In this document: positions 24,009 to 39,619 of the stretch, one piece after another
Layout of the letters: each line of letters opens with the position of its first letter
How positions within the stretch are numbered: the first letter of the stretch is position 1
Origin: Ruminococcaceae bacterium AM07-15
GTDB lineage: Bacteria; Bacillota; Clostridia; Oscillospirales; Butyricicoccaceae
Direction: 5' to 3'
NCBI GenBank assembly: GCA_003477405.1
Contig: QUDE01000004.1
Location: 158,176-222,175, forward strand
Length of the DNA: 64,000 nt
Translations under genes and position numbers: made by a program
Notes under the pieces: generated by a model
The model's database searches: none
What the model saw: only the letters and a program-made list of their open reading frames with translations
What the model was told of the DNA's origin: nothing

Positions 24009-24235
24009 AAGCCGCCTTGTAAGGCGGCTTCAGACTGTCGAGAGACCTATGTAATGAAAAAGGTCTTTTGTTCTACCCCTATGAATTCGCAAAAAGCCGC
24101 GACCTGTGCGTGGCTTTTTGCACCGATCAAGGGGCAAGTGTGCGCCGAAGGCGTGCATGCAGCCCCTTGCAAAGACTCGAAAAAGTGGCTTTTGCCACTT
24201 TTTCGACACGCTCAAGCCGCCTTGTAAGGCGGCTT
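24009..24235. repeat. Dispersed intergenic repeat, copy A, bracketed by duplicated terminator hairpins
   Basis: The core runs from TGTCGA (24036) to TCGACA (24203-24208), about 173 bases. It contains the hairpin CGAAAAAGTGGC/GCCACTTTTTCG and a second hairpin GCAAAAAGCC/GGCTTTTTGC around the sequence ACGCACAGGTCG. The same core occurs in the opposite orientation at 39349-39582. Outside the core, identical 22-base terminator hairpins (arms AAGCCGCCTT/AAGGCGGCTT) lie at 24009-24030 and 24214-24235 in direct orientation. The right one ends the convergent gene at 24241. Copies of a local terminator on each side suggest insertion with target duplication or recombination between terminators. Confidence 0.85.
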
Positions 24236-24240
24236 TTTTG

Positions 24241-24738
24241 TTAGTTCAGGGCGGGCTGCTCGTCCAGATTGGTGAGTCCCAGTTCCCGCACAATGATCTG
24301 GGCGGTTTTCAAGGCGCACAGACCGGTGAGCCAGACGCATTGCTGGGCGTGTTCCTCCGGGCTCAGGGTGAACTGGCGGGTGAGAACCCGGCAGCAAAGA
24401 GTATTTTTGCCGTTGGCCTCTTTGAACCAGTCGTACAGCTCCCGGGTCAGCTGGAGGCATTTCACCGACTGGGGGTCCTCCGGCCCACGGGGTTCGGTGC
24501 GGCCGAAAAACAGCCCCAGAGCCATTGTGCCGCCGTTGAAAGCGCCGCACATACACCCGGCTTGTCCGGCGCCCACCGCCATGCCGGAGGCCATGGCGAT
24601 GACCTGCCGGGGCACATCCAGCTCAAAATTGTCCCGGATGGCACAGATCAGGGCTTCGCAGCAATAAAAGCCTTTGCGGAAGTTTTCTTCGGCGTCCTGC
24701 TGTACTTTTTTGGGGCTGATTTCTTTTTTGATATGCAT
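24241..24738 (-). CDS. C-GCAxxG-C-C family protein
   Basis: A 165-residue protein of the redox-associated C-GCAxxG-C-C family. The defining motif is present as GCMCGAFNGG preceded by CCEALICAI and followed by CLQLTRELYDWF and CCRVLTRQF. Such proteins are thought to bind a metal or cluster through conserved cysteines, but the reaction is unknown. The ATG at 24738 is preferred to the TTG just before it. The next gene upstream on this strand ends 30 bases away, so an operon of exonuclease, TIGR04076 protein and this gene is possible. Confidence 0.85.
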   Translation of the reverse strand: MHIKKEISPKKVQQDAEENFRKGFYCCEALICAIRDNFELDVPRQVIAMASGMAVGAGQAGCMCGAFNGGTMALGLFFGRTEPRGPEDPQSVKCLQLTRELYDWFKEANGKNTLCCRVLTRQFTLSPEEHAQQCVWLTGLCALKTAQIIVRELGLTNLDEQPALN

Positions 24739-24768
24739 CAAGAACCATCCTTTCAGAAAATAAGGGAT

Positions 24769-25335
24769 TCAGGCCCAGCGGCCACGGGGAAGGGTGCGGC
24801 GCCTTTCCAGGTCATAAAGCCGCAGAAAGGGTGCGGGATCTGCGCCGGAACGCACATGGCGGAGGAAGATCTCTCCGCAGGCCTGGCTGTCGGAAGCGGC
24901 TTCATGGTGGCGCAGAGGAATGGAAAAATAATCGGCCAGGGTGTTCAGCCGGTGATTGGGGAGCTGGGGCAGAAGCTGGCGGCTCATGCGGCAGGTGCAC
25001 AGATAGGGCACCAGCGGCCCCCAGGAGATGCCGTAGTCTGCAAGGCATTTGGACAAAACCCCCAGGTCAAAGGGAGCGTTGTGGGCCAGCAAAGTGCGGC
25101 CGGAAAGCAGCTCTTCCAGCTCCTCCCACAGCTGGGGAAAGGTGGGGGAGCTTTTCACCATGGCCGGGGTGATGCCGGTGAGGGAAATGTTGAAAGGGTC
25201 AAAATGGGTTTCTGGATTGACCAGAAAAGAGAAATTTTCAGTGATTCCGGTTTCATCCAGCAGAGTGACGCCCACGGCGCTCATGCGCCGGTTCTGGCTG
25301 TTGGGGGTCTCCACATCGAAGGCGGCATATTTCAT
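24769..25335 (-). CDS. DEDDh 3'-5' exonuclease (DnaQ-like)
   Basis: A 188-residue exonuclease of the DNA polymerase III epsilon family. ExoI is seen as FDVETPN with Asp7 and Glu9, ExoII as LLAHNAPFDLGVL with an Asp near residue 90, and ExoIII as HHEAASDSQACGEIF with the catalytic His and Asp. It is a single domain, with no helicase or polymerase fusion, so it probably trims or repairs DNA or RNA. Its start overlaps the stop of the TIGR04076 gene by four bases. Confidence 0.9.
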   Translation of the reverse strand: MKYAAFDVETPNSQNRRMSAVGVTLLDETGITENFSFLVNPETHFDPFNISLTGITPAMVKSSPTFPQLWEELEELLSGRTLLAHNAPFDLGVLSKCLADYGISWGPLVPYLCTCRMSRQLLPQLPNHRLNTLADYFSIPLRHHEAASDSQACGEIFLRHVRSGADPAPFLRLYDLERRRTLPRGRWA

Positions 25336-25643
25336 ACCTGTTCCTCCAGGGCTTCCACAAGGAAGGTCACCGGCCGGAAGCCGTCGTTGCAGGAGAGCAT
25401 GGCCGAGCGGGGATTCTGCATCCAGCCGTCGTAAAAGTTCTCCGCCCCATGGCTCAGGGCCAGCACAAAGGGGGACAGGCTGTCCCAGGCGCTTTGGCAG
25501 AAACCCTCCGGCTTTTCCCAGCCATTTGCAATGTACACCTGTCCCACTTCCATATCACAGGCGTGTTCCAGCGGGTTTTCGTACTGGGCCATCAGGTCGG
25601 GGTAGCAGGTTTGTTTCATCACGGTGATCCGGCATTTGCGCAT
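25332..25643 (-). CDS. TIGR04076 family protein
   Basis: A 103-residue protein with the TIGR04076 pattern: MRKCRITVMKQTCYPDL, CDMEVGQVYI, EGFCQSAWDSLSPFVLAL and GWMQNPRSAMLSCNDGFRPV. The function is unknown; conserved cysteines suggest a redox or metal role, and the family is often near anaerobic metabolism genes. The ATG at 25643 has a GGAGGGA site; the longer reading from 25682 was rejected. It is translationally coupled to the exonuclease gene. Confidence 0.85.
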   Translation of the reverse strand: MRKCRITVMKQTCYPDLMAQYENPLEHACDMEVGQVYIANGWEKPEGFCQSAWDSLSPFVLALSHGAENFYDGWMQNPRSAMLSCNDGFRPVTFLVEALEEQV

Positions 25644-25756
25644 GAAAATCCCTCCTTGCAAAGTAAAGCCAGTGTACCACAAAAAGAGGCGGGGAGCAAA
25701 TGTTGACGGGGCTTTTTCCCGGTGTTACAATGGCGGAAAAGAAAGGAAGTGGAAGG

Positions 25757-26182
25757 GTGGAAAAGCCGGAAGGATATTTCACCGATCTATTCCAGCTGTT
25801 CTCTGGAAAAGAGCGGGAGCTGGAGCTTTATCACCAGGCGTTTGACAAAATGGAACAGGCTTTTCCCCAGGCCCGGGTGAAGGTGGGGAAAAGCCAGGTG
25901 AGCTTTTATGGGAAGCATCTCTTCGCCGCCTTTTCCCCGCCGGTGCGGCGGAAAAAGGATTGGCCGGAGCACTTTCTCCTGGTGACCTTTGGCCTGGGAG
26001 AGCCTTTGGCCTCTCCCCGTGTGGCCGTGGTGGTGGAGCCCTATCCCGGCCGCTTTACCCACCATGTGCTGGTGGAGCGGGAGGAAGAGCTGGACGAGGA
26101 GCTGTTTTCCTTTTTGGCTATGGCCTGGGAGTTTGGGGAAAACAAGGGGCGAGGAAGCAAGGCTCCTCATGGGAGAAAATGA
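25757..26182 (+). CDS. DUF5655-like protein
   Basis: A 141-residue protein resembling DUF5655, with YFTDLFQLFSGKERELELYH, ARVKVGKSQVSFYGKHLFAA, FLLVTFGLGEPLASPRV and EPYPGRFTHHVLVEREEELD. The function is unknown; the fold may bind nucleic acid or a small ligand. The start is taken as GTG at 25757 after GGAAGTGGAAGG, though an ATG at 25730 in the same frame is possible. The last 65 bases overlap the convergent DNA glycosylase gene. Confidence 0.75.
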   Translation: MEKPEGYFTDLFQLFSGKERELELYHQAFDKMEQAFPQARVKVGKSQVSFYGKHLFAAFSPPVRRKKDWPEHFLLVTFGLGEPLASPRVAVVVEPYPGRFTHHVLVEREEELDEELFSFLAMAWEFGENKGRGSKAPHGRK

Positions 26183-26696
26183 CCCCCACCGCCTGGAGAT
26201 AGGAATAGAGAATGGTGGTGCCCACAAAGGACATTCCCCGCTTTTTCAGATCCCGGGACAGGGCATCGGATAAGGGGGAGGAGGTCAGGCCGCATTCCCG
26301 GATGGGAGCGCCCCCTGCAAAATCCCACAGGTAACGGTCAAAGCTGCCGAATTCCTTCTGAATGTCCAGAAATGCCTGGGCATTCCGGACAGCGGCCTGG
26401 ATCTTCCGCCGGTTGCGGATGATGCCTTTGTCCTGGCAAAGCTGCTCTATTTTCTCCGGGCCGTACTGGGCCACCTTCCGGGGATCAAAGCCATCAAAGA
26501 CCAAACGGAAATGTTCCCGTTTATTCAGTACACATTCCCAGGAAAGACCCGCCTGAAAGCCCTCCAGGATCAGCATTTCAAAGAGCTTTTGGTCGTCGTG
26601 CACCGGCACGCCCCACTCTTCATCGTGGTAGCGGATATACAGGGGATTCTGGGGATTTGCCCAGGGGCAGCGTGTTTTTCCATCGGACCAGATCAT
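26118..26696 (-). CDS. tag: DNA-3-methyladenine glycosylase I
   Basis: A 192-residue base-excision enzyme that removes 3-methyladenine from DNA. The family pattern is clear: CPWANPQNPLYIRYHDEEWG, ILEGFQAGLSWECVLNKRE, and the C-terminal helix-hairpin-helix region ending GMSFVGTTILYSYLQAVGVI. Zinc ligands are seen as the early Cys and His and the later HEEPC. The ATG at 26696 is preferred; an in-frame GTG nine bases upstream is also possible. It overlaps the convergent DUF5655 gene at its 3' end. Confidence 0.92.
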   Translation of the reverse strand: MIWSDGKTRCPWANPQNPLYIRYHDEEWGVPVHDDQKLFEMLILEGFQAGLSWECVLNKREHFRLVFDGFDPRKVAQYGPEKIEQLCQDKGIIRNRRKIQAAVRNAQAFLDIQKEFGSFDRYLWDFAGGAPIRECGLTSSPLSDALSRDLKKRGMSFVGTTILYSYLQAVGVIFSHEEPCFLAPCFPQTPRP

Positions 26697-26768
26697 CGTT
26701 TTCACCAGCTTTTTGGAAGTGTTTTTTTCAGAATATCATTTTTCCCTGTGTTTCACAAGGAGGACAGT

Positions 26769-27581
26769 ATGATTAAAGTGACAGACCTGACCCGGGACTA
26801 CGGAGAAAATCGGGGCGTGTTCGGCCTGAGTTTCCAGGTAAAGCCGGGGGAGCCATTCGGCCTTCTGGGCCCCAACGGGGCGGGAAAGACCACCCTGATC
26901 CGCCATCTGATGGGATTTCTCCGGCCCCAGAAGGGCCAGTGCACCATTTACGGCCTGGACTGCTGGAAAGACCGGAAGCAGGTGCAGCGCATGGTGGGGT
27001 ATATCCCCGGGGAGATGTCCCTGATGGAGGGGATGCGGGGAGAGGACTATCTGGATTTTCTCGACCGGTACCGGGGCTTTACCGGGGAAGGATACCGCCG
27101 GCTGCTGCTGGATCGGTTCCCGGTGGATCTGAACACCCCCATCCATAAGATGAGCAAGGGCACCAAGCAGAAACTGGGTATCGTCGCCGCCTTTTCCCAC
27201 AAGCCGGAGGTGCTCATTCTGGACGAGCCCACTTCCGGCCTGGACCCTCTGATGCAAAAGGAATTTGTGGATTTCATCGGGGAAGAGGGAGCCAAGGGCC
27301 GGGTGATTCTGCTTTCCAGCCATATCTTTGAGGAAGTGCAGCGCACTTGCCGCCGGGTGGGTATTCTGCGGCAAGGGAAGCTGTTGACCCAGGACACCGT
27401 CCGAGAGATGGAAGAAAAACACAGCCGTCGCTATGTGCTCCAGGTGGAAGAAGGGGATGCCCAGGCCTTTGCCCGGGACTTCGGAGGAACGGCTTTGGAA
27501 GATGGCCGGGTGGAAGTGAAAAAGACAGCCGACCTGGAAGAGATCTTCCTGAGCTACTACCGGAAGGGGGAAAACCAATGA
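26769..27581 (+). CDS. ABC transporter ATP-binding protein (exporter type)
   Basis: A 270-residue ATPase of the multidrug/antibiotic export class. It has Walker A GPNGAGKTTL at about residues 36-45, signature MSKGTKQKLG, Walker B VLILDEPTSGLD, the H-loop ILLSSHIFEE, and a C-terminal regulatory region. The ATG follows an ACAAGGAGG site. Its stop overlaps the start of the permease gene by four bases, making a two-gene exporter. The substrate is unknown. Confidence 0.92.
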   Translation: MIKVTDLTRDYGENRGVFGLSFQVKPGEPFGLLGPNGAGKTTLIRHLMGFLRPQKGQCTIYGLDCWKDRKQVQRMVGYIPGEMSLMEGMRGEDYLDFLDRYRGFTGEGYRRLLLDRFPVDLNTPIHKMSKGTKQKLGIVAAFSHKPEVLILDEPTSGLDPLMQKEFVDFIGEEGAKGRVILLSSHIFEEVQRTCRRVGILRQGKLLTQDTVREMEEKHSRRYVLQVEEGDAQAFARDFGGTALEDGRVEVKKTADLEEIFLSYYRKGENQ

Positions 27582-28366
27582 ACAAGGCGCTGTTCTGGCG
27601 GGAAATGCGGGGGTCTTTGGGACTGCTGGTGATTTTTGGAGGCGTGCTTACCTTGTATATCGTCATGATCGCCGGGCTGTATGACAAGGAGACCCAGCAG
27701 GCTCTTCAGCAATTTTACGATATGATGCCCCAGTTGATGGCGGCGGTGGGCATGAACGGAGAAGGGGACACCCTGCTTTCTTTTCTCTCCACTTATTTGT
27801 ACGGCATGCTGCTTCTGGCCTTTCCCATGGTCTATGCCATCCTGCGGGCCAGAGGGCTTGTGGCCCGGTATGTGGAAAAGGGCAGTATGTACGCCCTGTG
27901 TGCCGCCCCGGTGAGCCGCCTTTCTCTGGCGGGCACCCAGCTGGCGGTGCTCGTTTCCACCCAGTTCGGGCTGCTGCTTTACTGTACTGTTCTGGAAATT
28001 GTATCCTGCCAGGTGCTCTTTCCCGGGGATCTGGACATCAAAGGGCTTCTATGCCTCAATGGGGGGCTTTTGTGCCTCCATCTTTGCCTGGGGGCCTTCT
28101 GCTTTCTGGTCTCCTGCCTGGGGGAAGGGAGCCGGTGCACCGCGCTGATGGCCGGGGTTCCCACCTTGATGCTGGTGATGCAGATGCTGGCCAATCTGGG
28201 AGGAAAACTGGAAAAATTCCAGTATGTAACCCTGTTTTCCCTGTTTCAGCCGGAAAAGCTGATGGCAGGGGAAGGGCTGCTTCCTGCCGGAATGCTCCTT
28301 TTGCTGGCCGTTTTGTTTTCCGCCCTGGCCCTGTGGGGCTTCTGCCGCCGGGATCTGTATATATGA
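27578..28366 (+). CDS. ABC transporter permease, ABC-2 type
   Basis: A 262-residue membrane protein with six predicted helices, partner of the ATPase encoded immediately upstream. It starts MNKALFWREMRGSLGLLVIF, a common start of ABC-2 permeases of the exporter class, and ends in a short basic tail. No drug specificity can be read. It is coupled by ATGA overlap and followed by a terminator. Confidence 0.88.
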   Translation: MNKALFWREMRGSLGLLVIFGGVLTLYIVMIAGLYDKETQQALQQFYDMMPQLMAAVGMNGEGDTLLSFLSTYLYGMLLLAFPMVYAILRARGLVARYVEKGSMYALCAAPVSRLSLAGTQLAVLVSTQFGLLLYCTVLEIVSCQVLFPGDLDIKGLLCLNGGLLCLHLCLGAFCFLVSCLGEGSRCTALMAGVPTLMLVMQMLANLGGKLEKFQYVTLFSLFQPEKLMAGEGLLPAGMLLLLAVLFSALALWGFCRRDLYI

Positions 28367-28367
28367 A

Positions 28368-28394
28368 AAAAAGAGACCCACAGGGTCTCTTTTT
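28368..28394. terminator. Bidirectional terminator
   Basis: Arms AAAAAGAGACCC and GGGTCTCTTTTT with an ACA loop lie between the exporter operon and the convergent flavodoxin gene. Confidence 0.92.
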
Positions 28395-28398
28395 ACTA

Positions 28399-28923
28399 TT
28401 ATGCTTTTTGGAGAAAGTCCACAATGGGCTGCAAAGTTTCCCGGCGGGTAAAATCCAGGGTTTTGCCGTAGGTATGGAGGATTTGCCGGTCCTCTTCGGT
28501 CAGGTCCTTCTTTTTCAGAATGGCCTGGCGCAGTGCCCACATCATCAGCCGATGAAGGGGAGAAAGGCGGCTGTAATCCAGCCCGCCCCGCAGGAAAAAC
28601 AAGGGCGTATCCCGCCGGTTTTCCGGCAGGGCCTTTTCCACATTGTTCCGGATGTTTTGGCGGGTGACTTCCAAGTTGGGATCGGCTACGCCGCAGGTGA
28701 ACAGGACCCATTTTTGGGCCTTTGCGTGCCGGGTGAGAAAGGACAGGCCGCCCATGCCTCCGGCATAGAGACTGCCTCCCAGAACAATGGTGTCATAGGA
28801 GGCCAGGGATGCGGGGGAGAGCCCTTTGACATTCCACACAGGACAGCCCAGGCTTTCCCCCAGCCACTGAGCATAGCGCTGGGTGTGGCCATAGCGGGAG
28901 GCATAGAGCACCACTGGTTTCAT
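28399..28923 (-). CDS. Flavodoxin-domain protein
   Basis: A 174-residue flavoprotein with a flavodoxin/HemG-like fold. The FMN-binding start reads [20 protein letters not shown], followed by [17 protein letters not shown] and a VLFTCGVAD strand. It lacks membrane segments. HemG-like proteins oxidise protoporphyrinogen, but many Clostridia relatives have no known partner. Its ATG overlaps the stop of the YbjQ-like gene by four bases, so the two are coupled. Confidence 0.85.
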
Positions 28924-29240
28924 CGCAGCGTTACCGCCGTGCCGGAGACGCTGACCATCAGCATGCCGTTGTCGCTGCCCAGCACTTCGTAGTCCACATC
29001 CACGCCAACCACAGCGTCGGCTCCCAGAGCGCTGGCCCGCCGCTGCATCTCCGCCAGGGCTTCGCTCCGGGCATTCTGCAGCTCATCCTCATATCCGGAG
29101 CTGCGGCCGCCGAAAATGTTCCGCAGCCCTGCGCCGATGTCCCGGAAAATGTCCACGCCGGAGATCACTTCTCCAAACACGATGCCCTTATATTCTCCGA
29201 TGGTGCGTCCCTCCACGGTAGGGGTGGTGGTGATGATCAT
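28920..29240 (-). CDS. YbjQ/UPF0145 family protein
   Basis: A 106-residue protein of the heavy-metal-binding YbjQ family (UPF0145): [37 protein letters not shown] and [18 protein letters not shown]. The fold forms a homopentamer in known structures; the role is unclear. The AAGGAGGC site fixes the ATG at 29240 and excludes the long upstream extension. It heads a two-gene operon with the flavodoxin gene. Confidence 0.9.
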
Positions 29241-29436
29241 AAAAAAGCCTCCTTTGTTTTTTAAAATGTGGGGAAATTGTATCACAGCAGAAGGGGGAGA
29301 GGAAGGGGGTCGGGTAAACATTGTGCAAAATAGCCAAAAAATCTCCTTCAGAATCCCGCAGCCTGCCCCCTTGTGGCAGGGGAGTTTGTATTTTATACTG
29401 AATTTACAGTGAAAAAAGAGGAGGGTGTTTTTTCCT

Positions 29437-30939
29437 ATGGCAGACAAAATCATGGAACAGGCGCTGGAGATCCTGCGCCACCAGCGATATTATGACAGCA
29501 TCCAGGGCCTGATGGGCTGGGATCTGTGGGAAGGTCTTTCCAAAAAGGGCCAGCCTTACCGGGGGGAAGTCAGCGGCTATTTCACCCGCCAGGCTCTGGC
29601 CGAGCTGAAAAGTCCCGAGACCCGGAAAGTGGTGGACGCCCTGAAGGAGCGGAAGCCGGAAGATTTTGAGGACATCTATCTGAAAGGGGCCGCCCATGAG
29701 CTGTGTCAGCGGTATGACCAGGCGGTGCAGGTGCCCGAAGATCTCCAGGTGGAAGTGCGCAACTACACCGGTCAGGCCCAGATGGCCTGGCGGGATGCTT
29801 TGGATAAAAACAGCTTTGAATTTTATAAACCCACCATCAAGGGCCTGTTTGAGCTGAAAAAGCGGGTGGCGGAAGCCATCGACCCCAACCGTCCGGCCTT
29901 TGATGTGCTGTGCGGCACCGTGGACGAGGGCATCGACACCCAGCGGGTGCAGCAGCTGTTTGCCGGGCTGAAAAAGGGCATTGTGGAGATCATGGAACAG
30001 ATCGCGCCCCAGCATGAGAAGATCGATACCAGCGTGCTGGAGACCCCCTACACCCATCAGCAGCGCCGGGATGCGGCCTTTGAGATCAATCTGCTCACCG
30101 GCTTTGATCCCGACTGTGCCCATGACAGCCAGGTGCTCCACGGCATGTGCACCGGCGTCGGCCCCCGGGATAGCCGTATTGCCATCAGCTATAAAGGGGT
30201 ATGGGGCGGCATCTTCACCATGCTCCACGAAGGCGGCCATGCCCGCTATGGGTACAGCTCCAATGACCGGGCGGTGGAATGCGGCCTGTGGGGCGGCCTG
30301 AGCGGCGCCATGCACGAGGGCCAGGCCCGCTTCTATGAGAATATCATCGGCAAATCTCCCGAGTTCTGGCGTCTGGCCTACCCGGTGGCGGTGAAGCACT
30401 TCCCCTATCTGAAGGATGTGCCCATGGAGAAATTCTACATGGCCCAGATGAAGGTGCAGCCCTCCCTCCACCGGATCACCGCCGACGAGCTGACATACAG
30501 CCTCCATCCCATCATCCGTTTTGAGATGGAGAAGGATTATTTTGACGGCAAGACCAGCACCGATGATTTTGAGGAGATCTGGCGGGAGAAATACAAGGAG
30601 ACCTTCGGCCTTGTGCCCAAGGACGCCCGGGAAGGTGTCTTGCAGGACATCCACTGGGCCTCCGGCCACATCGGCTATTTCCAGAGCTATACCCTGGGCA
30701 ACCTGTATGGCGGACAGATGCTTCATGCCATGAAGAAGGCGCTGCCCAACTTTGATGAACTGGTGGAAAAGGGCGACTTTGCACCCATCAACCAGTGGCT
30801 CTATGACAATGTGCACCAGTTCGGCCGGGCCATGACCCCCACCGAGGTGCTGCTCCACGCCACCGGCGAAGAGCTGACCGAGACCTATTTCCTGGACTAT
30901 CTCCGGGATAAATACCTGAACAAGCTCCGCAACATCTAG
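29437..30939 (+). CDS. Carboxypeptidase Taq-type metallopeptidase (M32)
   Basis: A 500-residue zinc carboxypeptidase of family M32 that removes C-terminal residues from peptides. The zinc motif is [11 protein letters not shown] at about residues 263-273, with the third ligand in [14 protein letters not shown] some 27 residues further. Other family blocks ([61 protein letters not shown]) are intact, and the length matches. The first possible start is GTG at 29425, but it touches the AGGAGG, so the ATG at 29437 is used. It is monocistronic and ends at a terminator. Confidence 0.94.
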
Positions 30940-30997
30940 CGGCGGTCCGGTGTCCGGACCCATATCTTTGGCTTGGGAAGGGAAATGACAGAAACAG

Positions 30998-31024: not shown

Positions 31025-31036
31025 TGCTTCTTTTTA

Positions 31037-33841
31037 TCAATCGCTGGAAGAGGCGAAGGAGGCTGCCACGGCCTGGGCGATGGCCTGGGCCGTCTGGTCG
31101 ATGTTTTGGGGGTCGGTGATGGTGCCGAACTCCTGGGGGTTGGTCAGGCATCCGTTTTCCAACAAAATGGCAGGGCAATGGGTCTGGCGGCACACATAGA
31201 GCAAACTGTCGCTTTGGGCCGGGTTGGCCGCCCGTCCGGCACTTTCCACGCTCTGGCAAATGCTCTGGGCCAGGGAGTGGGAAAGCTCCCCTTGGCAGTA
31301 GGCCGAAAAGCCTCCTTTGGCCGACAGATCCTCATCCGGCGCACCGCTGCCATAGTGGAAGGACAAAAACAGGTCGGGCATCTCCTGGAAAGACTGCTCA
31401 AATCGCTGCCGGGGGCTGAGGGTTTCGTCTTTTTCCCGGGTGTAGGACACCGTGGCTCCCATTTCCTCTAGCTTTTCCCCCACCGCCTGACATAGGGCCA
31501 GGTTCACATCCTTTTCTGCACAGCTTGGGTCACAGCCCACAGCACCTTCCTGGTTTCCGCCATGGCCGGCGTCCAGCAGAATATGTACCCCCGAAAGCCC
31601 CTCCTCTGGAGTGGGCTTTTTCCGCACATGGAGGGTGGCACCCTGGTCTGTTTTTTCAAAATAGAACCCCCAGGGGCTGGTATCCTTCAAGGTGAAGGAA
31701 TAGACCAGGCACCCGTCCTCCACCTGACACAGGGATTGGGCCACCTGTTCCCCGGAAAGGGAGGCCCCCCGGCTCACCCCCGGAAAGCGCACCTTCAGCA
31801 TCCCATCCTCCCATGTGCAGCAAGCCGCCAGAGGGCCCTTGCTTTGGAAGGACACCAGGGTCTCTTCTTTTTCCGAAGACACCGAGGCGGTGGTGATCTC
31901 CCGGTTTTCTTCTTCGGTAGAAAGGGAGATGTCGTTGAGCGAAAGATACCCCAGGCCGGGCACCTGGGCATAGCCCTGGGAGATGGCAGACACCGGCCCT
32001 GTCATCCCTTGCCGCAGAGTGCCGGTGGAGCCTTGGGAAGAGGCGGGGGACTGGTAGATGTCGCACAGATCGGTCTGTACCTGAAAGGACAGGGACAGTT
32101 GCTTTCCCGTCTGGTAAAATCCCCCTGGGGCCAGTGTGGCGGTGACGAAATTGCCCCGGCGGATCACATAAAGGGGGGAGCCGTACCGGGTCACCTGATC
32201 CTCCTTTCCCTGGGGCAAAGAAATGCTGGCCTGGTAATCCTCCCCTTGCCAGGAAAGGGGCTGGCTCTTTCCCAGAAACAATGCGGTAACGGCGGCACCC
32301 GGCCGGGCCGTCAGACGCAGGAGGGCTTGCTGTCCCGGCGAGACATAGGTATCTCCCAGGGGAGCCGCTTCCTCCCAACAGGAAGCGGCCAGGCCCCGCA
32401 GCAGACGGCAGGTGAGGGTATGGGGGCCGTTTTCCAGGGTGAAGGTGTTGAAACCCGGCTCTAGGGACAGCAGCACTCCAAAGCTGCCGTCCTTTCCACG
32501 GGAAAGCACCGGCTGGCCGTTGATGGTCAGGGGCTGGCTGGGATCGGAGATGCCGCAGAAATAATAAGAAGAACAGTCTGTGCGGGTCAGATCTTTTGGC
32601 TGGGACAGCTTCAGGGGACTTTCTTCTTCCGGTTTTTCCTCGGATGGTTCCGCATCGCTCACCGGGGCAGGTTCCGTCAGCACTTCTCCCAAAGCGGCGG
32701 TCATGGGGGAAAGGGAGCCCATGCGGAACAGAATCAGCCCCTGGCTTTTGCCGTTTTGCAATAGATCGATCTGGCCCAGGATCTCTTCATAACCCTGCCA
32801 GGGGGCGGCGGAGTCCCCGCCCATGGCTTTGTAGGCCGCCAGGGCGGGCACCAGCTGGCACTGGGTGCCCGACACCGTGTTTTCCCACCACTGGAGCAGA
32901 GCAGTGAAGTCCGAACCCTCCTGGCCCCGGTACCAATAGAGCTGGGGGGAGATGTAGTCCAGCAGCCCTTCCTGCACCCAAAGGCGGGTGTCGGCATAGT
33001 GGGCAAAATAGCTTTGGGTGCCGGCGGTGTCGCTGCCTCCCTCCAGTTGGGAGGCGTTGGCCCAGATGCCAAAGGGGGAAACTCCAAATTGAGCCTGGGG
33101 GTTTGTTTGTTCAATGGTATCGTGGAGCAGGGAGATCATCTGGGTCACATTGCTGCGGCGGAAATCATCCAGGGAGGCCCCTTGTCCATATTGAGCGTAG
33201 GAGGCGCTGTCTCCGAAATCCGTGCCGGGGTAAAAATAATCGTCCAGGTGGATACCGTCCACCGGATAGTTTTCCAGGATCTCCTGTACCCCATCGGCCA
33301 CCAGCTGACGCACCTGGGGCAGGGCCGGGTCAAAATACAGTTCTCCGTTATAGAAGATCACCAGAGAGGGGTCTTTCCGGGCCGGGTGGGTTTCCGCAAG
33401 GGTGCTGAGGCAGGCTTCCTTGGTGGCTCCCTGCACGCCCTGGGTCACCCGGTAAGGGTTGATCCAGGCGTGGACCTCCATGCCATATTCATGGGCCTGC
33501 TCTGTGAGATAGGCCAGGGGATCGAAGTCCTCCGATGGGGCCTGGCCCTGCTTGCCTGTCAGATAGCGGCTGTAAGGAAAGATGGAGGAGGGATACAGAG
33601 CATCGGCACAGGGCCGTACCTGAAAAAAGATGCTGTTCAGTCCGGCCTTCCGGGCGTTTTGCAAAATGGAGTCCAGCTCTCCCTTCATCTCCTCCGGAGA
33701 CAGGCCGGGGGAGGAGGGGAAGTCCAGGTTGGAAACGGTGGAGACGAACACCCCACGCAGGGAAAGCTCTGAGCCATGGCAGGGCAAACCGCAAAAAAGC
33801 AGCAGGCAAAGGGCGCAAAAGCAAAAACGGCGCAGAAGCAT
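31037..33841 (-). CDS. Secreted GHL10 glycoside-hydrolase-like / N-acetylmuramoyl-L-alanine amidase fusion
   Basis: A 934-residue exported cell-wall enzyme. A signal peptide (LLRRFCFCALCLLLFCGLP) leads into a GHL10/DUF187 domain at about residues 28-370 (RGVFVSTVSNLDFPSS, NSIFFQVRPCADALYPSS, VHAWINPYRV). A middle region of about 350 residues looks like beta-rich wall-binding or linker domains. The last 180 residues are an Amidase_3 domain: LLDAGHGGNQEGAVG supplies the first His, EKDVNLALC the first Glu, FLSFHYGSG the second His and ILLENGCLTN the catalytic Glu. The pairing suggests coordinated cutting of peptidoglycan glycan and stem peptides, perhaps during sporulation or growth. ATG follows a GGAGGAA site. 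Confidence 0.9.
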   Translation of the reverse strand: MLLRRFCFCALCLLLFCGLPCHGSELSLRGVFVSTVSNLDFPSSPGLSPEEMKGELDSILQNARKAGLNSIFFQVRPCADALYPSSIFPYSRYLTGKQGQAPSEDFDPLAYLTEQAHEYGMEVHAWINPYRVTQGVQGATKEACLSTLAETHPARKDPSLVIFYNGELYFDPALPQVRQLVADGVQEILENYPVDGIHLDDYFYPGTDFGDSASYAQYGQGASLDDFRRSNVTQMISLLHDTIEQTNPQAQFGVSPFGIWANASQLEGGSDTAGTQSYFAHYADTRLWVQEGLLDYISPQLYWYRGQEGSDFTALLQWWENTVSGTQCQLVPALAAYKAMGGDSAAPWQGYEEILGQIDLLQNGKSQGLILFRMGSLSPMTAALGEVLTEPAPVSDAEPSEEKPEEESPLKLSQPKDLTRTDCSSYYFCGISDPSQPLTINGQPVLSRGKDGSFGVLLSLEPGFNTFTLENGPHTLTCRLLRGLAASCWEEAAPLGDTYVSPGQQALLRLTARPGAAVTALFLGKSQPLSWQGEDYQASISLPQGKEDQVTRYGSPLYVIRRGNFVTATLAPGGFYQTGKQLSLSFQVQTDLCDIYQSPASSQGSTGTLRQGMTGPVSAISQGYAQVPGLGYLSLNDISLSTEEENREITTASVSSEKEETLVSFQSKGPLAACCTWEDGMLKVRFPGVSRGASLSGEQVAQSLCQVEDGCLVYSFTLKDTSPWGFYFEKTDQGATLHVRKKPTPEEGLSGVHILLDAGHGGNQEGAVGCDPSCAEKDVNLALCQAVGEKLEEMGATVSYTREKDETLSPRQRFEQSFQEMPDLFLSFHYGSGAPDEDLSAKGGFSAYCQGELSHSLAQSICQSVESAGRAANPAQSDSLLYVCRQTHCPAILLENGCLTNPQEFGTITDPQNIDQTAQAIAQAVAASFASSSD

Positions 33842-33965
33842 CAAACATTCCTCCTTTTTGTTCTTCCGGTGGCACCAAAAAAATTTTCCGGTGTGCTCCT
33901 ATCCATCCTATGGGCCTTTGTGCTAAAATAGTACAAGCCGAAAGAGATATATGGGAGGTTTTTGC

Positions 33966-34814
33966 ATGGGAGAACATTTGCGCCTGGCGGCGCTTCACGA
34001 TATTTCCGGTTTTGGACGGGGGTCCATGACCACGGCCATTGCCGTTTCTTCGGCGGCTGGGGTACAGTGCTGTCCGGTGGTGGGGTCGGTGCTTTCGGCC
34101 CACACCGCCTATCCCCAGGTGACGGTGCGGGATCTCACTGAGGATCTGCCGGGGTACATTGACAGCTGGCAGCGGATTGGCTGCGATTTTGACGCATTGT
34201 ACAGCGGCTATATGAGCCATGTGAGCCAGGGAGAGCAGATGCTGCGGCTGCTGGAAAAAAGCGCCCGGCCCGGCTGTCTGTTTTTGGTGGACCCGGTGAT
34301 GGGGGACAACGGCAAAGCCTATGCCGGTTCCTTCGGGGCGGAGTTTGCCCGGCAGATGCGGGACTATTGCGCCCATGCCCACATCGTCACCCCCAACCTG
34401 ACCGAGGCCGCCATGCTGCTGGGCAAGGAACCGGATGCCTGGAAGCGGGAGGAGCATCCGGTGGAGCGGTATCTGGAAGGGCTTTTGGAAATGGGCTGTC
34501 AGGCGGCGGTGATCACCGGGGTGGAAACCGGAGAAGGCCGCATCGGCGCCCGGTACCTCACCCGGGATGGCCAGCAGGGATTGGCCGACTGTCCCCGGGT
34601 GGACGCCTATTTCCCGGGCACCGGGGATCTGTTTGCTTCGGTGCTGCTGGTGACCTTGCTGCGCCGGGGAAGGGACCGGCTGGAAGAGGGAGTGCAGATG
34701 GCGGTGGACTTTGTCTACCGGTGTGTGGAGCACACCCACAAGGCGGGCACACCCCCTCTCAACGGTGTGCTGCTGGAGGAGATGCTTCCCATTTTGTGGG
34801 AGAAACTCCGGTAG
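33966..34814 (+). CDS. Pyridoxamine/pyridoxal kinase
   Basis: A 282-residue kinase of the PdxY/PdxK-like ribokinase fold that makes pyridoxal 5'-phosphate from vitamin B6 forms. It shows LAALHDISGFGRGSMTTAI at the start, FLVDPVMGDNGKAY for ATP/metal contact, IVTPNLTEAAMLLG, and the anion-hole GTGDLFASVL with the catalytic Asp. ATG with a GGGAGG site at 33966 is chosen over an upstream in-frame ATG. It stands alone before a strong terminator and the tRNA cluster. Confidence 0.9.
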   Translation: MGEHLRLAALHDISGFGRGSMTTAIAVSSAAGVQCCPVVGSVLSAHTAYPQVTVRDLTEDLPGYIDSWQRIGCDFDALYSGYMSHVSQGEQMLRLLEKSARPGCLFLVDPVMGDNGKAYAGSFGAEFARQMRDYCAHAHIVTPNLTEAAMLLGKEPDAWKREEHPVERYLEGLLEMGCQAAVITGVETGEGRIGARYLTRDGQQGLADCPRVDAYFPGTGDLFASVLLVTLLRRGRDRLEEGVQMAVDFVYRCVEHTHKAGTPPLNGVLLEEMLPILWEKLR

Positions 34815-34820
34815 GGAAAA

Positions 34821-34864
34821 AAACTCCCGGCGGAGGGGATTTCTCCGCCGGGAAAAGTTTTTTC
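34821..34864 (+). terminator. Terminator after the pyridoxamine kinase gene
   Basis: Arms TCCCGGCGGAG and CTCCGCCGGGA are followed by AAAAGTTTTTTC. Confidence 0.9.
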
Positions 34865-34895
34865 AAAAAAAAATAAAAAAATTTCAAAAAACCCC

Positions 34896-34924
34896 TTTAC
34901 AAATGGGGCAAAGGGCGTTATACT
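34896..34924 (+). promoter_or_regulatory. Sigma-70-type promoter of the tRNA cluster
   Basis: TTTACA (34896-34901) and TATACT (34919-34924) are separated by 17 bases, about 53 bases before tRNA-Trp. Spacing and sequence are near consensus. Confidence 0.85.
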
Positions 34925-34976
34925 ATGGGAGCGTCGTAACGGTGAAGGAAACCACGGTGAAGGCGCTGAGTGATAA

Positions 34977-35052
34977 AGGGGTATAGCTCAGCTGGTAGAG
35001 CAGTGGTCTCCAAAACCACGTGCCGAGGGTTCAAGTCCTTCTGCCCCTGCCA
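34977..35052 (+). tRNA. tRNA-Trp (CCA anticodon)
   Basis: A 76-base cloverleaf starting AGGGGTA and closing TGCCCCTG-CCA. The anticodon loop CTCCAAA, T-arm GGTTCAAGTCC and encoded CCA end are all visible. It is the first of three tRNAs in one transcript. Confidence 0.96.
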
Positions 35053-35055
35053 TAC

Positions 35056-35132
35056 GGCCGTGTAGTTCAGTTGGTTAGAACGCTAGCCTGTCACGCTAGA
35101 GGTCGACGGTTCGAGCCCGTTCACGGTCGCCA
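35056..35132 (+). tRNA. tRNA-Asp (GTC anticodon)
   Basis: A 77-base cloverleaf with acceptor GGCCGTG/CACGGTC, anticodon loop CTGTCAC, T-loop GGTTCGAGCCC and encoded CCA. It begins four bases after tRNA-Trp. Confidence 0.96.
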
Positions 35133-35137
35133 GATAT

Positions 35138-35213
35138 GCTGTTGTAGCTCAGTTGGCAGAGCACGTCATTGGTAATGACGAGGTCGGCAGTTCGAATCTG
35201 CTCAACAGCTCCA
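35138..35213 (+). tRNA. tRNA-Thr (GGT anticodon)
   Basis: A 76-base cloverleaf with acceptor GCTGTTG/CAACAGC, anticodon loop TTGGTAA, T-arm GGCAGTTCGAATCTGC and encoded CCA. It is the last tRNA before the terminator. Confidence 0.96.
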
Positions 35214-35214
35214 C

Positions 35215-35408
35215 AAGGGCCCAGATCAAAAGATCTGGGTCTTTTGCTGTTTTCCGAACGGCCGGCCTCTGCAAAACCATAGGTTTTGCGTTTTAAAATG
35301 AGAAACGGGTACGCCTTCCGGGAAGGCGCACCCGGCAGTTCGAATCTGCTGGGCAGCGTTGCAAAGGCCCAGATCAAAAGATCTGGGCCTTTTGCTGTTT
35401 TCCGAAAC
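35215..35408 (+). repeat. Duplicated tRNA terminator with an intervening tRNA-tail remnant
   Basis: The terminator after tRNA-Thr (CCCAGATC-AAAA-GATCTGGG, then TCTTTTGCTGTTTTCCGAA) starts near 35217 and recurs almost unchanged near 35363. In front of the second copy lies GGCAGTTCGAATCTGCT (35334-35350), identical to the T-arm of tRNA-Thr, but no full tRNA fits there. Between the copies are two perfect palindromes, GCAAAACC-ATA-GGTTTTGC near 35271 and CGCCTTCC-G-GGAAGGCG near 35313. The arrangement looks like a decayed tRNA copy or the scar of a lost insertion. Confidence 0.8.
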
Positions 35409-35421
35409 AATTCATCTGCCC

Positions 35422-35455
35422 AAAGCCGCTCATTTCAAACAAAAAGAGCGGCTTT
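35422..35455 (+). terminator. Additional terminator-like hairpin downstream of the tRNA region
   Basis: Arms AAAGCCGCTC and GAGCGGCTTT with a 14-base loop are followed by GTTTG. The remaining bases up to 35619 contain only the start region of the next gene. Confidence 0.7.
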
Positions 35456-35619
35456 GTTTGCCGGGGTGCGACAATAACGCACGCTTATTTGCAAGAAATG
35501 CGCTGGCTGGGGCTTCCGGCCTATGCTATGATATCCATAGGCCCCTAATATGCTCATGGTGTGCATTTATTCTACGAGTAAATATTCTGCTTGTACTTTG
35601 AAAAGCAGGAGGTTTTTTT

Positions 35620-37212
35620 ATGTCCAAAATACGCCAGTATTCCTTTTCGATATCCTGTTTTCTGATTGTTTTGGTTGTGGCGGGCTTTTGTGCTGCGCTC
35701 TTTCTGGCTCTGCGTTCTCCTGTGCCGCCTCAGCCTGAATTGTATCAGCAACTGGTGGAAATCGAGCCGGAGGGCCCCGCAGAAGACGGGGCCGGTGTTA
35801 TCTATCAGAAAGTATTGTCCGATGAGCGCTGGAGCCAGCCGGTCTGCGCCATTGTGGCCAAACGGAATGCCTACTCTGTGTATCTGGACGGTGAGCTTTT
35901 GCACGAATATACCCCCGGTTCTTTTGACCACGGCGGGCTGGTGCATTGGATCTCTCTGCCTGACACCGATCTGGAAGGGCGTGTCCTCACTGTATCGTCC
36001 TCTTCACAGGAACTGACGGTCCAGGTGGGAAATTACAGCGATCTGATCCTGCATTACCGCAACACAAACGCGGCGACCCTGCTCTTTTCGGGGCTGTTTC
36101 TGGTGCTGGGTATCCTGATCGGCCTGCTGTCTCTGGGGGCCAGGGCCGCCATTGGAGCCCAGCGCCTTCGGACCTTGCGGTACCTCAGCGGGCTGGTGCT
36201 CCATGTGAGCCTGTGGATCTCCATGGATGCGGCTGTGCTCCAGATGGTCCATGTCAGCGGTGCAATCATGTATGTATTGGCCATGTATGCTTTTATGGCC
36301 ATGCCTCTTTTTATGATCCAGTTCTACCGCAGCATGATGAAAGAAGACAGCCGACTGCTGCGCCTGCTTTACCGGCTCCATCTGTTGGATCTTTGTATCT
36401 GCGGCCTGCTGCAGGTTCTGGGCGTGGCCCAGCTTCATGAAATGCTGCCTCTGACCCATGTGCTGATGGTTTTGACACTCCTGTCTCTGCTGCGCATCAT
36501 GGTGGCCTGGCTCCATTCGGAACTCCGCTGGGAGGCCGGGATGATGCTGGGCGGTTTTGCCGCCGTTGGCTGCTGCTGCGCCGCAGGATTCCTGGATTAT
36601 TACTTGTGGGGGAGACATTCCTATCTCATCTATTTCAGCGTGGGTATCCTGCTGCTGGTGGTGTCCCTGCTGGCCGTCTCCATTGGCTATGTGTACCAGG
36701 AGATGGTGAAATCCTCCCAGATGCGCTATTATCGGAAAATGGCCAACACCGATCTGATGACCCAGCTTGGCAGCCGTACAGCCTTTGAGGAACGGGTCCG
36801 GCAGTCTCCCGTCCTCACCGGCTCCTGCGCCTGTGTTGTTCTGGACATCAACAATCTGAAACAGATCAACGATACCATGGGCCATTCGGCCGGTGACGAG
36901 CTGATCTGCACGGCCGCCCAGTGTATTTTGTCGGTTTTCGATTCCCTGGGCCGCTGTTACCGCATGGGCGGCGATGAATTTGTGGTGCTGCTGCAAGATA
37001 TCGCCCAGCCTGAGGTGGACAAAGCCCTGGGAGAATTGGAACGGAGCATCGGCCGCAGGAATCTGACACGATCCTTCCCTCTGTCGGTGGCCGTGGGGTA
37101 TGCCATGGGCCAGGATGCCCCCATTGAGCAGATGTTCCGCCAGGCCGATGCCAATATGTATCAGAATAAGACCCGGATGAAATGCGAAACTGTGACAATG
37201 GACAGAGCGTAA
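35620..37212 (+). CDS. Membrane diguanylate cyclase with 7TM-type sensor
   Basis: A 530-residue c-di-GMP synthase. A first helix near residues 10-30 is followed by an extracytoplasmic domain of about 110 residues (YSVYLDGELLHEYTPGSF), then seven or so helices between about 150 and 360, as in 7TMR-DISM sensors. The C-terminal GGDEF domain carries YRMGGDEF at about residue 447. An RxxD inhibitory site before it is absent, unlike the cyclase at 7533. The AGGAGG site supports the ATG. It is monocistronic and follows the tRNA cluster. Confidence 0.9.
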   Translation: MSKIRQYSFSISCFLIVLVVAGFCAALFLALRSPVPPQPELYQQLVEIEPEGPAEDGAGVIYQKVLSDERWSQPVCAIVAKRNAYSVYLDGELLHEYTPGSFDHGGLVHWISLPDTDLEGRVLTVSSSSQELTVQVGNYSDLILHYRNTNAATLLFSGLFLVLGILIGLLSLGARAAIGAQRLRTLRYLSGLVLHVSLWISMDAAVLQMVHVSGAIMYVLAMYAFMAMPLFMIQFYRSMMKEDSRLLRLLYRLHLLDLCICGLLQVLGVAQLHEMLPLTHVLMVLTLLSLLRIMVAWLHSELRWEAGMMLGGFAAVGCCCAAGFLDYYLWGRHSYLIYFSVGILLLVVSLLAVSIGYVYQEMVKSSQMRYYRKMANTDLMTQLGSRTAFEERVRQSPVLTGSCACVVLDINNLKQINDTMGHSAGDELICTAAQCILSVFDSLGRCYRMGGDEFVVLLQDIAQPEVDKALGELERSIGRRNLTRSFPLSVAVGYAMGQDAPIEQMFRQADANMYQNKTRMKCETVTMDRA

Positions 37213-37338
37213 GAGACGGGGCCATTTGCGTAAATTCCGGGTGTTGTGTTTAAGAAAGGTTCCTTCTGTGAAGAATAAAGGATAACAGGAAGCGGCCAGC
37301 TACCGTCTTCCATATCATCGGGAACAGGGAGGAACAAG

Positions 37339-38772
37339 ATGGAATCCATTTGGTCTCAAAGCTGCACCATTCCCCAGCGTCAGCCCCTGACGGGGGATCT
37401 GGAAGTGGAAGCCGCCGTGATCGGCGGAGGTATGGCGGGGATTCTCACCGCCTTTTTGCTGCAGGAGGCGGGATGTCAGGTGGCAGTGGTGGAGGCCGGG
37501 CGCATCGCCAGCGGCCAGAGCCGCAATACCACCGCAAAGATCACCGCCCAGCATGGAATGATCTACCAGAAGCTGCTCCGGACCCTGGGCGCGGAGGAAG
37601 CCAGACAATACGCCAGGGCCAATCAGGAGGCTGTCCAGGCATACAAAGCCCTCATCCGGGAAAAGCAGATCCCCTGCGACCTGGAAGAGCGCTGCGCTTA
37701 TGTGTATGGCAGCGATGCCCAAGCCCTCCAGGAAGAGGCCCAGGCCGCCGCCAGCCTGGGCCTGCCTGCGGAGTATGCACACCATGTGCCCATCCCGGTA
37801 CCGGCGGCCGGGGCTGTGCGTTTTACAGGTCAGGCCCAGTTCCATCCCCTCAAATTTCTCCGCCATCTTTCCCAGGGCCTGACCGTCTATGAACACACTC
37901 CGGTGCAGCAAGTGGAAGAGGACCGGCTCATGACACCCAGGGGATGTATCAAAGCCAGGCACATCGTCTTTGCCTGCCATTTTCCTTTCCTCAATGTGCC
38001 GGGGCTGTATTTTGCCAGGCTTCATCAGGAGCGCTCCTATGTGCTGGCCCTGGAAGGCGCTCCCCAGGTGGAGGGGATGTATATCAGCGGGGAAGCGGGA
38101 GGCTGGTCCTTCCGCAACTGGGGGGATCTCCTTTTGCTGGGGGGCGAAAATCACCGCACAGGGGAAAGCGGCAAGGGTGGCCGGTATGAGCGGCTGCGGC
38201 AAAAGGCCGCAGAATGGTTCCCGGGCAGCCGGGAGGTGGCCTGTTGGTCGGCCCAGGACTGCATCACGCCGGACGGCATACCTTATATCGGCCGGTATGC
38301 CGCCAGCCGCCCCAACTGGTATGTGGCCACCGGTTTTCAGAAATGGGGCATGACCACTTCCATGGTTTCCGCCACCATTCTCCGGGATATGATCGGCGGC
38401 AAAGAGAGTCCCTATGCCAGGGTGTTTGCCCCGGACCGGCTGGAAACGGCCGCCATCCCCGGGATGGCGGCCGATGGAGGCAAGGCGGTAAAAGGCCTGG
38501 CCAAACGCTTTTTCCAGATGACCACCCAGGCGGCCGAGGAAATCCCACCGGGAGAAGGTGGGATCGTCCTGTGGGAAGGGGAGAAGGTGGGGGTCTACAA
38601 GGACAAAGATGGTTCTGTGCACAAGGTAGACATCCGCTGTCCCCATCTGGGATGCCAGCTGGAGTGGAACCCGGATGAGCAAAGCTGGGATTGCCCCTGT
38701 CATGGTTCCCGGTTTGACCGGTATGGGCGGCTGATTTCCGGACCGGCCCAGGAGGACATTGCCCTGGACTGA
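37339..38772 (+). CDS. FAD-dependent oxidoreductase with C-terminal Rieske domain
   Basis: A 477-residue cytoplasmic oxidoreductase. The DAO-type FAD domain opens with the dinucleotide fold VEAAVIGGGMAGILTAFLLQ at about residues 21-40 and continues to about residue 360. The last 90 residues form a Rieske 2Fe-2S domain with CPHLGC and CPCHGSRFD, giving the two Cys-His pairs. The architecture matches the YhfW-like family common in Firmicutes; its substrate is not established. A GGGAGGAAC site lies before the ATG. Confidence 0.9.
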   Translation: MESIWSQSCTIPQRQPLTGDLEVEAAVIGGGMAGILTAFLLQEAGCQVAVVEAGRIASGQSRNTTAKITAQHGMIYQKLLRTLGAEEARQYARANQEAVQAYKALIREKQIPCDLEERCAYVYGSDAQALQEEAQAAASLGLPAEYAHHVPIPVPAAGAVRFTGQAQFHPLKFLRHLSQGLTVYEHTPVQQVEEDRLMTPRGCIKARHIVFACHFPFLNVPGLYFARLHQERSYVLALEGAPQVEGMYISGEAGGWSFRNWGDLLLLGGENHRTGESGKGGRYERLRQKAAEWFPGSREVACWSAQDCITPDGIPYIGRYAASRPNWYVATGFQKWGMTTSMVSATILRDMIGGKESPYARVFAPDRLETAAIPGMAADGGKAVKGLAKRFFQMTTQAAEEIPPGEGGIVLWEGEKVGVYKDKDGSVHKVDIRCPHLGCQLEWNPDEQSWDCPCHGSRFDRYGRLISGPAQEDIALD

Positions 38773-38788
38773 TCCCGGCCGCCCAGCA

Positions 38789-39232
38789 TCAATGATCCCG
38801 GGCGGCGTCGGCTTTGGTGGGATGGACGGTGCCCCGGGGATGATGGGGCGGCGCATAAATGGAGGACAGCTTCAGAGGACAGGGGCCCGCATTGAGGATG
38901 TTGTGCCAAAGGCCGGCCGGTATGAAAATGCCGCAGCCTGGGGTCAGATACCGGCGCACGCTCAGATTTTCCGGCCGGTCTCCCAGGCAGACCAGAGCCC
39001 GTCCCTGCTCCACACGGACGAATTGGTCGGTGTCCGGGTGTGTTTCCAGTCCCACTTCGCTTTGCGGGGGGATGTGCATCAGGGTCATTTGCAAAGAGTC
39101 CCCCGTCCAGAAGGTAGTACGGAAATTCCGGTTTTGTCCGGCCGCCGCTGTGATGTTGGCGGCAAAGGCTCCTGGCCCGTGATCTGCACTGCATGGGCCG
39201 CTGCGGACTGGGTGAAAGTGGTGAGGATTCAT
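38789..39232 (-). CDS. Cupin-domain protein
   Basis: A 147-residue single-domain cupin. The metal-binding motif 1 is seen as GLETHPDTDQFVRVEQG and motif 2 as GIFIPAGLWHNILNAG, so two or three histidines and a glutamate/aspartate can bind a metal. The substrate cannot be assigned; relatives include sugar isomerases and small-molecule binders. It is convergent with the Rieske oxidoreductase gene with only 16 bases between stop codons. Confidence 0.88.
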   Translation of the reverse strand: MNPHHFHPVRSGPCSADHGPGAFAANITAAAGQNRNFRTTFWTGDSLQMTLMHIPPQSEVGLETHPDTDQFVRVEQGRALVCLGDRPENLSVRRYLTPGCGIFIPAGLWHNILNAGPCPLKLSSIYAPPHHPRGTVHPTKADAARDH

Positions 39233-39311
39233 AGAATCGGCTCCTTTTTTGTGATGGATATCCCATTCTATGTGTCTTTCACCGGAAAGTGCATGGCCCG
39301 ATCAAGCAAAT

Positions 39312-39619
39312 AGCCCCCAGACGGCATACGCCGCCTGGGGGCTGTGTGTGTCGAAAAAGTGGCTTAGGCCACTTTTTCGAGTTTTTGCAAGGGGCTGGCG
39401 GCGAGTCGCCGCTCCCATTTTTCTTTGCTCCGTTAGGTTGTATACGCCCGGGCAAAGAATGTTTGCTTGCGGGGTCACCCCGCCCTTGAGAGGTGCAAAA
39501 AGCCACGCACAGGTCGCGGCTTTTTGCAAATTGATTAAGGGTAGGGCGAATGGTTTCTTTTCGCTATAGTGGTTTTTCGACAGTCTGAGCCCCCAGACGG
39601 CATACGCCGCCTGGGGGCT
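39312..39619. repeat. Dispersed intergenic repeat, copy B, bracketed by duplicated terminator hairpins
   Basis: The core (39349-39582, about 234 bases) begins TGTCGAAAAA and ends TTTTTCGACA, a perfect 10-base terminal inverted repeat. Inside are AAGTGGC/GCCACTT, the conserved TTTGCAAGGGGCTG, and GTGCAAAAAGCCACGCACAG followed by the matching half of the hairpin. It is the inverse of copy A, with a longer variable centre. Direct copies of one 32-base hairpin, AGCCCCCAG...CCTGGGGGCT, flank it at 39312-39343 and 39588-39619; the right one is the terminator of the lyase gene at 39644. No coding sequence is seen in the 411 bases between genes. Confidence 0.85.

Follow-up and report, generated by a model that had tools for sequence, protein, structure and literature searches.

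Two copies of a short repeat, hereafter A and B, lie in opposite orientation in the window (the whole 64,000-nucleotide stretch of DNA that was analysed), at the places where a first-pass annotation of the sequence had put them. As that annotation had also claimed, each copy sits between identical terminator hairpins that are specific to its site, and these form perfect direct repeats of 22 nt at A and 32 nt at B. The features are listed below, with the strand in brackets where one applies; An565 stands for Intestinimonas butyriciproducens An565.

24009..24030: terminator hairpin, left copy at A; a palindrome, repeated directly without mismatch over 22 nt
24031..24213 (-): element A, 183 bp; takes up the whole space between the hairpins, with the same ends as the An565 copies
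24031..24041 (-): right terminal repeat of A, plus-strand reading CAGACTGTCGA; agrees with the right end seen in other copies
24077..24173 (-): conserved two-hairpin core of A; covariance model R1, 112.3 bits, E 3.7e-29
24089..24121 (-): core hairpin 3 of A, with the conserved loop GCACAGGTC; inverted repeat I4, covariation
24128..24169 (-): core hairpin 2 of A, with a conserved internal loop; read from the sequence, covariation
24177..24206 (-): hairpin 1 of A, holding most of the left terminal repeat; inverted repeat I3, perfect over 13 bp
24199..24213 (-): left terminal repeat of A, GAGCGTGTCGAAAAA on the minus strand; common to the An565 copies
24214..24235: terminator hairpin, right copy at A; identical to 24009-24030
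39312..39343: terminator hairpin, left copy at B; direct repeat and palindrome
39344..39587 (+): element B, 244 bp; between the hairpins, with an orthologous counterpart in An565 (L029)
39344..39358 (+): left terminal repeat of B, GTGTGTGTCGAAAAA; from comparison with An565
39351..39380 (+): hairpin 1 of B; inverted repeat I4, perfect over 13 bp
39384..39539 (+): core of B, its hairpin 2 carrying a GC-rich block; R1, 73.1 bits, E 2.8e-18
39494..39528 (+): core hairpin 3 of B; inverted repeat I5
39573..39587 (+): right terminal repeat of B, TTTTTCGACAGTCTG; same end in the An565 copies
39588..39619: terminator hairpin, right copy at B; identical to 39312-39343

The limits first drawn, 24036-24208 and 39349-39582, give the right places but too small an extent: each side needs 5 nt more, because other copies show the element filling the entire gap between the hairpins. 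The 10-base perfect terminal repeat noted for B is indeed present there; in A 6 bases are perfect. The two copies have in common the 20-mer GTGCAAAAAGCCACGCACAG, which occurs exactly twice in the window, against a chance expectation of 0.02 with up to three mismatches. A is one of the 34 sequences on which model R1 was trained and B lies outside that set. In B, a GC-rich block of about 90 nt, found also in the An565 copies L030 and L024 at 94% identity, stands in place of the usual apex of hairpin 2, and the flanking repeat, perfect over 32 nt, extends to 38 nt at 95%.

A and B are members of a family of elements that are mostly ~180-270 bp in length and lack a long open reading frame. The nucleotide and covariance searches that the annotation had suggested gave many copies in several genomes. 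Thus GTGCAAAAAGCCACGCACAG has 26 exact matches in 25 genome stretches, all from An565, two of which (L013 and L021), both at contig ends, are apparently a single copy; BLAST of A and B against the fetched An565 loci gave 54 entries, reduced to about 51 places after merging one repeated entry, one fragment (L035) and that contig-end pair. In An565, 90-94 candidates were flagged, 13-40 of which were scored. Across genomes of the order R1 found the core in 41 of 394 (17 of 169 genera), An565 included, with at most ten candidates scored per genome, so that copy counts are lower bounds; some congeners, G524, G395 and G375 among them, are copy-poor, with 1-2 matches. In a sample of the phylum the core was found in 2 of 398 genomes, one of them from the same order.

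The terminal inverted repeats read AGnnTGTC(G/A)AAAAA, and the left end in An565 reads AGCGTGTCGAAAAA. Matches to AGNCTGTCRAAAAA number 51 in genome G530, 67 in G422, 24 in G243 and 1 in G343, against 2, 3, 2 and 0, respectively, for the reversed control. Element length between the duplications is 175-273 bp (69 elements; span examined ~90-330 bp), and reading from an end to the next copy of its flanking hairpin, over 6 kb or as far as the stretch went, put most distances at 200-270 bp wherever a partner turned up, many ends having none within their stretch. The longest open run printed in the elements is 77 codons. Taken together, the elements are short, lack a transposase reading frame, carry terminal inverted repeats and, though not at every copy, have target-site duplications and empty sites, as miniature inverted-repeat transposable elements (MITEs) do. 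One 112-bp form without the core occurs at L276, and near position 4438 of L279, also in G530, lies another repeat of ~215 bp with a like terminal repeat and a different interior.

The duplication of the terminator was assessed by comparing the left-right match of each copy with the 99th percentile of mis-paired flanks. In the window, An565 and relatives, 39 of 59 copies with both flanks present exceed this control; the remaining 20, some of them visibly decayed, do not, in a set that includes a few false anchors. Most An565 copies of GTGCAAAAAGCCACGCACAG sit between site-specific hairpin pairs, and at L014 and L021, both under the cut, a diverged hairpin pair is nevertheless visible; the repeat with the highest score (L029:2021) does not form a plain hairpin. 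In other genomes, 27 of 61 loci with both flanks exceed the control, 18 of these being terminator duplications by eye and the other nine tandem copies or other repeats. The terminator pairs were seen at 5/5 loci in G530, 4/8 in G531, 4/8 in G422, 3/6 in G243, 1/8 in G343 and 1/1 in G314, and at none in G563, G415, G221, G359, G549 or G214. Chance similarity of flanks is discarded by these controls. Copies lacking flanking duplicates, named at the outset as speaking against the first reading, thus occur in part: 20 of the 59 copies do not exceed the control and 43 of the 61 loci show no terminator pair. Among loci fetched by the terminal repeat, a hairpin duplication scoring at least 50 was found at 21 of 30 in G530 and 3 of 10 in G243.

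What is duplicated was described in 69 elements selected because they showed a duplication (of 94 with an alignment score of 34 or more, 25 whose orientation was unclear or reverse were dropped), of which 32 come from G530, 19 from An565, 7 from G243, 4 from G422, 2 each from G531 and the window, and one each from G164, G343 and G314. In this selected set the duplication is 17-43 nt long (median 31), and it coincides with a hairpin: the median offset between the two centres is 0, and is at most 2 nt in 50 of the 69, as measured with a palindrome finder that misses bulged stems and on repeats some of which take in flanking sequence. Duplications contain a median of 11 stem pairs versus 5 in control windows (95th percentile 8). 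No common sequence was seen across the duplicated targets. The two flanking copies are identical in 39 elements and different in 30. At L263 (G530) one flanking hairpin is the exact reverse complement of its partner and at L310 (G530) part of the hairpin is, by eye, reversed relative to its partner, so that one of each pair has been flipped. At L230 (G243) four positions separate the two copies, and two pairs are compensated; there, and by eye at L017 and L021 in An565, the copies differ while each is well paired, as if perfected from its own arm.

Occupied and empty sites were also compared, as the annotation had suggested. For the G530 copy at L275:4538-4753 (locus 1), nine congeneric genomes were searched and seven fetched (G365, G508, G574, G395, G432, G422 and G524). 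All seven have a single terminator at the gene end, no element, and conserved sequence right after it, and the G530 sequence minus the element and one hairpin copy aligns through the congeners; farther downstream in G574 and G395 lies a shorter, different hairpin, which is no copy of the terminator. Since the element-free congeners have a single terminator, insertion of the element duplicates it, and no empty site holding two terminator copies, the finding that would have spoken against the first reading, was seen in the seven genomes at this one locus, which is the one clean empty-site test. At a second G530 locus, compared in six genomes, one hairpin was seen by eye in G524, G432 and G422. 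The site of copy A in An565, with one terminator, was rejected as a clean empty site because the next gene is also absent there. At the An565 copy near L029:1907-2067 the window has one terminator, the An565 repeat at that place not being a plain hairpin. With many copies in several genomes and empty sites with single terminators, the first-pass proposal of a mobile element that seeks and duplicates terminators is supported.

Blocks longer than 200 bp of the window align with one An565 contig at 85-94%. B is present at the same site in An565 (L029), where its left part is 100% and its right part 99% identical, and the blocks flanking B are 87-90% identical. Both hairpins around B show the same differences from one genome to the other, which suggests either concerted change of both or repeated insertion.

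As to the neighbouring genes, the first reading held that both are left properly terminated. The density of T after the hairpin is 2.0 per 8 nt at the left copy and 4.7 at the right, and that of A before it 4.1 and 2.3, respectively; an outer-left A-tract and an outer-right T-tract are both present in 39 of 69 elements and at least one of them in 64. Since the T-tract is kept only on the outer side of each copy, the complete terminator for each strand lies at the far copy. Judging from these counts, a transcript should pass the hairpin with little T-tract, cross the element and end at the far, complete terminator; the claim is thus to be reworded, with one complete terminator kept per strand, beyond the element. 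With a gene caller based on codon-position composition, 63 of the 68 elements with gene calls on both sides lie at a gene 3' end, 26 of these 63 between convergent genes, and five lie between divergent genes; co-directional cases split 21 to 16, with no clear orientation bias. A longest-open-frame caller gave no gene-orientation pattern (19/18/16/15). Location at gene 3' ends is therefore supported but dependent on the gene calls, as the composition caller shows a pattern and the simple caller does not.

The interior of the element is a conserved folded core. The order along the element is hairpin 1, then hairpin 2, whose internal loop is conserved, then hairpin 3, with a loop near GCACATGTC, often more hairpins, and the right end. 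The left terminal repeat lies in hairpin 1, which in G530 and G422 type I also holds an almost complete inverse of that repeat. Alignment A1, of 34 cores, has 21 pairs, seven with changes on both sides. In 69 cores (68 distinct), aligned by fitting to the model, the share of paired cells is 94.2%, versus 40-45% with partners slid, and the covariation score is 0.725 versus 0.214 when shuffled; none of 500 shuffles reached this score, nor the numbers of cells paired and of cells changed. Changes on both sides occur in 18 of 21 pairs, a figure that 64 of 500 shuffles also reach. Rfam returned only tRNAs in the window, with no match to the element, and two weak matches at E of at most 1 in five loci, neither over the element; a known Rfam family was accordingly discarded for the window and these loci.

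The core is more widespread than the terminator habit, since several lineages carry it without terminator pairs and with other ends; different outer ends surround it in G359, G549 and G214. A tandem array with five core matches spaced ~160-180 bp apart lies at L245 (G359:C1:21500-25300), and at L249 (G549) a core copy adjoins a tRNA-Arg gene, the 3' 44 nt of which are repeated on its other side with one mismatch. Carriage by phage or plasmid was discarded: a G530 element has no match in phages or plasmids and an An565 element none in phages, and viral contigs held no exact core and no G422-type end. A 16-base element end matched 33 viral contigs, roughly the chance expectation.

These results allow us to propose, as the probable reading, that non-autonomous, MITE-like elements insert at the hairpins of intrinsic terminators, choosing the target by shape and leaving a copy of the stem-loop on each side. 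The target would be picked by the form of the hairpin and not by its sequence, and a transposase of the DDE type or similar, acting in trans, would bind the terminal repeats, and perhaps the folded core, and attack the two 5' feet of an extruded cruciform. The two strands of the element would then be joined at opposite feet of the hairpin, in which case gap repair would leave a full stem-loop on either side. The inverted hairpins, found in 2 of 69 pairs, might fit such handling of folded DNA, and selection against insertions elsewhere could account in part for the preference for terminators. Against this reading stand the many copies without a recognisable duplication, the occurrence of the core elsewhere with different ends, in tandem or at repeats that are not terminators, its conservation over an order, which is unusual for a MITE, and the negative searches, given below, for an autonomous element and for DUF772.

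In the stretches fetched, neither an autonomous element with the same ends nor the transposase with matching ends that the annotation had thought worth seeking elsewhere in the genome was found. Autonomous candidates in G530 (L276, L279 and L287) were rejected, being ordinary ends beside unrelated genes or another repeat. Eight frames of 329 aa in G001 (L132-L139), three pairs of them ~1.39 kb apart, have the same weak IS1182-like score of 78.8 bits (cut-off 270); no element was found in that genome.

A second reading, which we hold tentatively and as doubtful, makes the core the true mobile unit: a host or trans-acting recombinase would recognise the folded element and cut at the feet of the hairpin, so that any terminator could serve as target and be duplicated whole. 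The core is conserved across an order with differing outer ends, and terminator targeting would be one of several target habits.

The preferred reading of MITE-like elements inserting at terminators has a precedent in IS1272. Derivation from the IS1182/IS1272 family, as a MITE whose transposase targets inverted repeats, is unlikely. According to the IS1272 report (PMC5678879), some IS1182-family members target palindromes, and IS1272 itself inserts at inverted-repeat structures of 21-85 bp, recognised by structure whatever their sequence; the targets of our 69 elements are palindromic too. Of the IS1272 copies described there, the four very near genes all lie just downstream of them. The authors drew three hypothetical pathways, one of which would duplicate the stem-loop, and with the palindrome targeting of IS1182 members this gives the idea a precedent (PMC5678879). 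Yet IS1272 carries its transposase and is reported to replace the hairpin, with no duplication (PMC5678879), whereas the element here carries none and duplicates it. The search for an IS1182 parent was also negative: model NF033551 has no match in An565, and DUF772 (PF05598) is absent from seven of eight element-bearing genomes, including G530, which is a single contig, and appears in the eighth, G531, as a frame with a stop. DUF772 is a domain typical of IS1182-like transposases.

Integration by a Cas1-like enzyme is quite improbable. CRISPR adaptation duplicates a palindromic repeat as a unit, with one repeat per array and short spacers, and the duplication here of a whole palindrome of 17-43 nt, together with the tandem array of one lineage (L245), is reminiscent of it. 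In our case, however, every target differs, with no common sequence seen, and the inserts are ~200 bp long, of one family and bounded by terminal repeats.

We give even less credence to a SINE-like retroelement, the transcript of which would be copied back into DNA and integrated with a long duplication of the target. The strong covariation of the folded core and the varying length of the duplication, ~60 nt at L250, are in line with this notion, as is the excess of G-T/T-G over A-C/C-A cells (95 versus 18 over all 21 pairs); but the latter falls to 28 versus 17 without two columns and to 3 versus 3 in hairpin 3 without its end pair, and both the terminal inverted repeats and the lack of a clear orientation bias relative to transcription (21 against 16) argue against it. 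Finally, it is hardly credible that two terminators were there beforehand, or came from a tandem duplication on the spot, with the element just lying between them: tandem terminators do occur in bacteria, but all seven congeners fetched at locus 1 have one, and the duplications are site-specific and abut the element ends across copies.

If the preferred reading of insertion at terminators with duplication of the stem-loop is placed among known systems, several likenesses emerge. Group IIC introns are ribozyme retroelements that prefer sites beside terminator stem-loops and are not known to duplicate the hairpin; the present element is likewise adjacent to terminators, but it has no Rfam match and its hairpin is duplicated. 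REP/RAYT systems have a Y1 transposase and a GTAG-footed hairpin. Bacterial MITEs, as described in a review (PMC10969869), are also short, without a long open reading frame, with terminal inverted repeats and with many intergenic copies; here, by contrast, an entire terminator is duplicated and the length of the duplication varies, the interior is conserved across many genera, and no parent insertion sequence was found in the stretches fetched. The passages of that review on the SPRITE, BOX and RUP repeats of pneumococcus describe them as small and intergenic, with SPRITE terminator-like, and do not mention duplication of host terminators (PMC10969869). Our literature search, with subscription journals and ISfinder outside its scope, yielded no recognised account of terminator duplication by such an element. 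The first-pass statement that no described element behaves in this way is therefore to be qualified: no match was recognised, but the duplication of a stem-loop had already been drawn for IS1272 (PMC5678879).

If true, the proposed insertion would give target duplication defined by structure a natural example in many copies, where the IS1272 report draws it only as a hypothetical pathway (PMC5678879), and the 3' ends of neighbouring genes would gain a folded piece. It also suggests a route for mobile DNA into gene-dense genomes with little damage, because two copies of the target hairpin remain. Thanks to the number of copies, the empty site and the order-wide core, both enzyme and mechanism are open to direct tests.

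Of the words sampled from the window, 20% also occur in G001, which belongs to a different family from An565. Synteny of the window with the fetched An565 contig stretch stops near 41866. The segment from 41900 to 64000 encodes a GGDEF/EAL protein, a PilZ protein, a P4-type primase and a restriction-modification-like set (SNF2/ResIII helicase, DUF4391, AAA ATPase, N6/N4 methylase, HEPN, and ResIII with RE_endonuc), and is perhaps an island.
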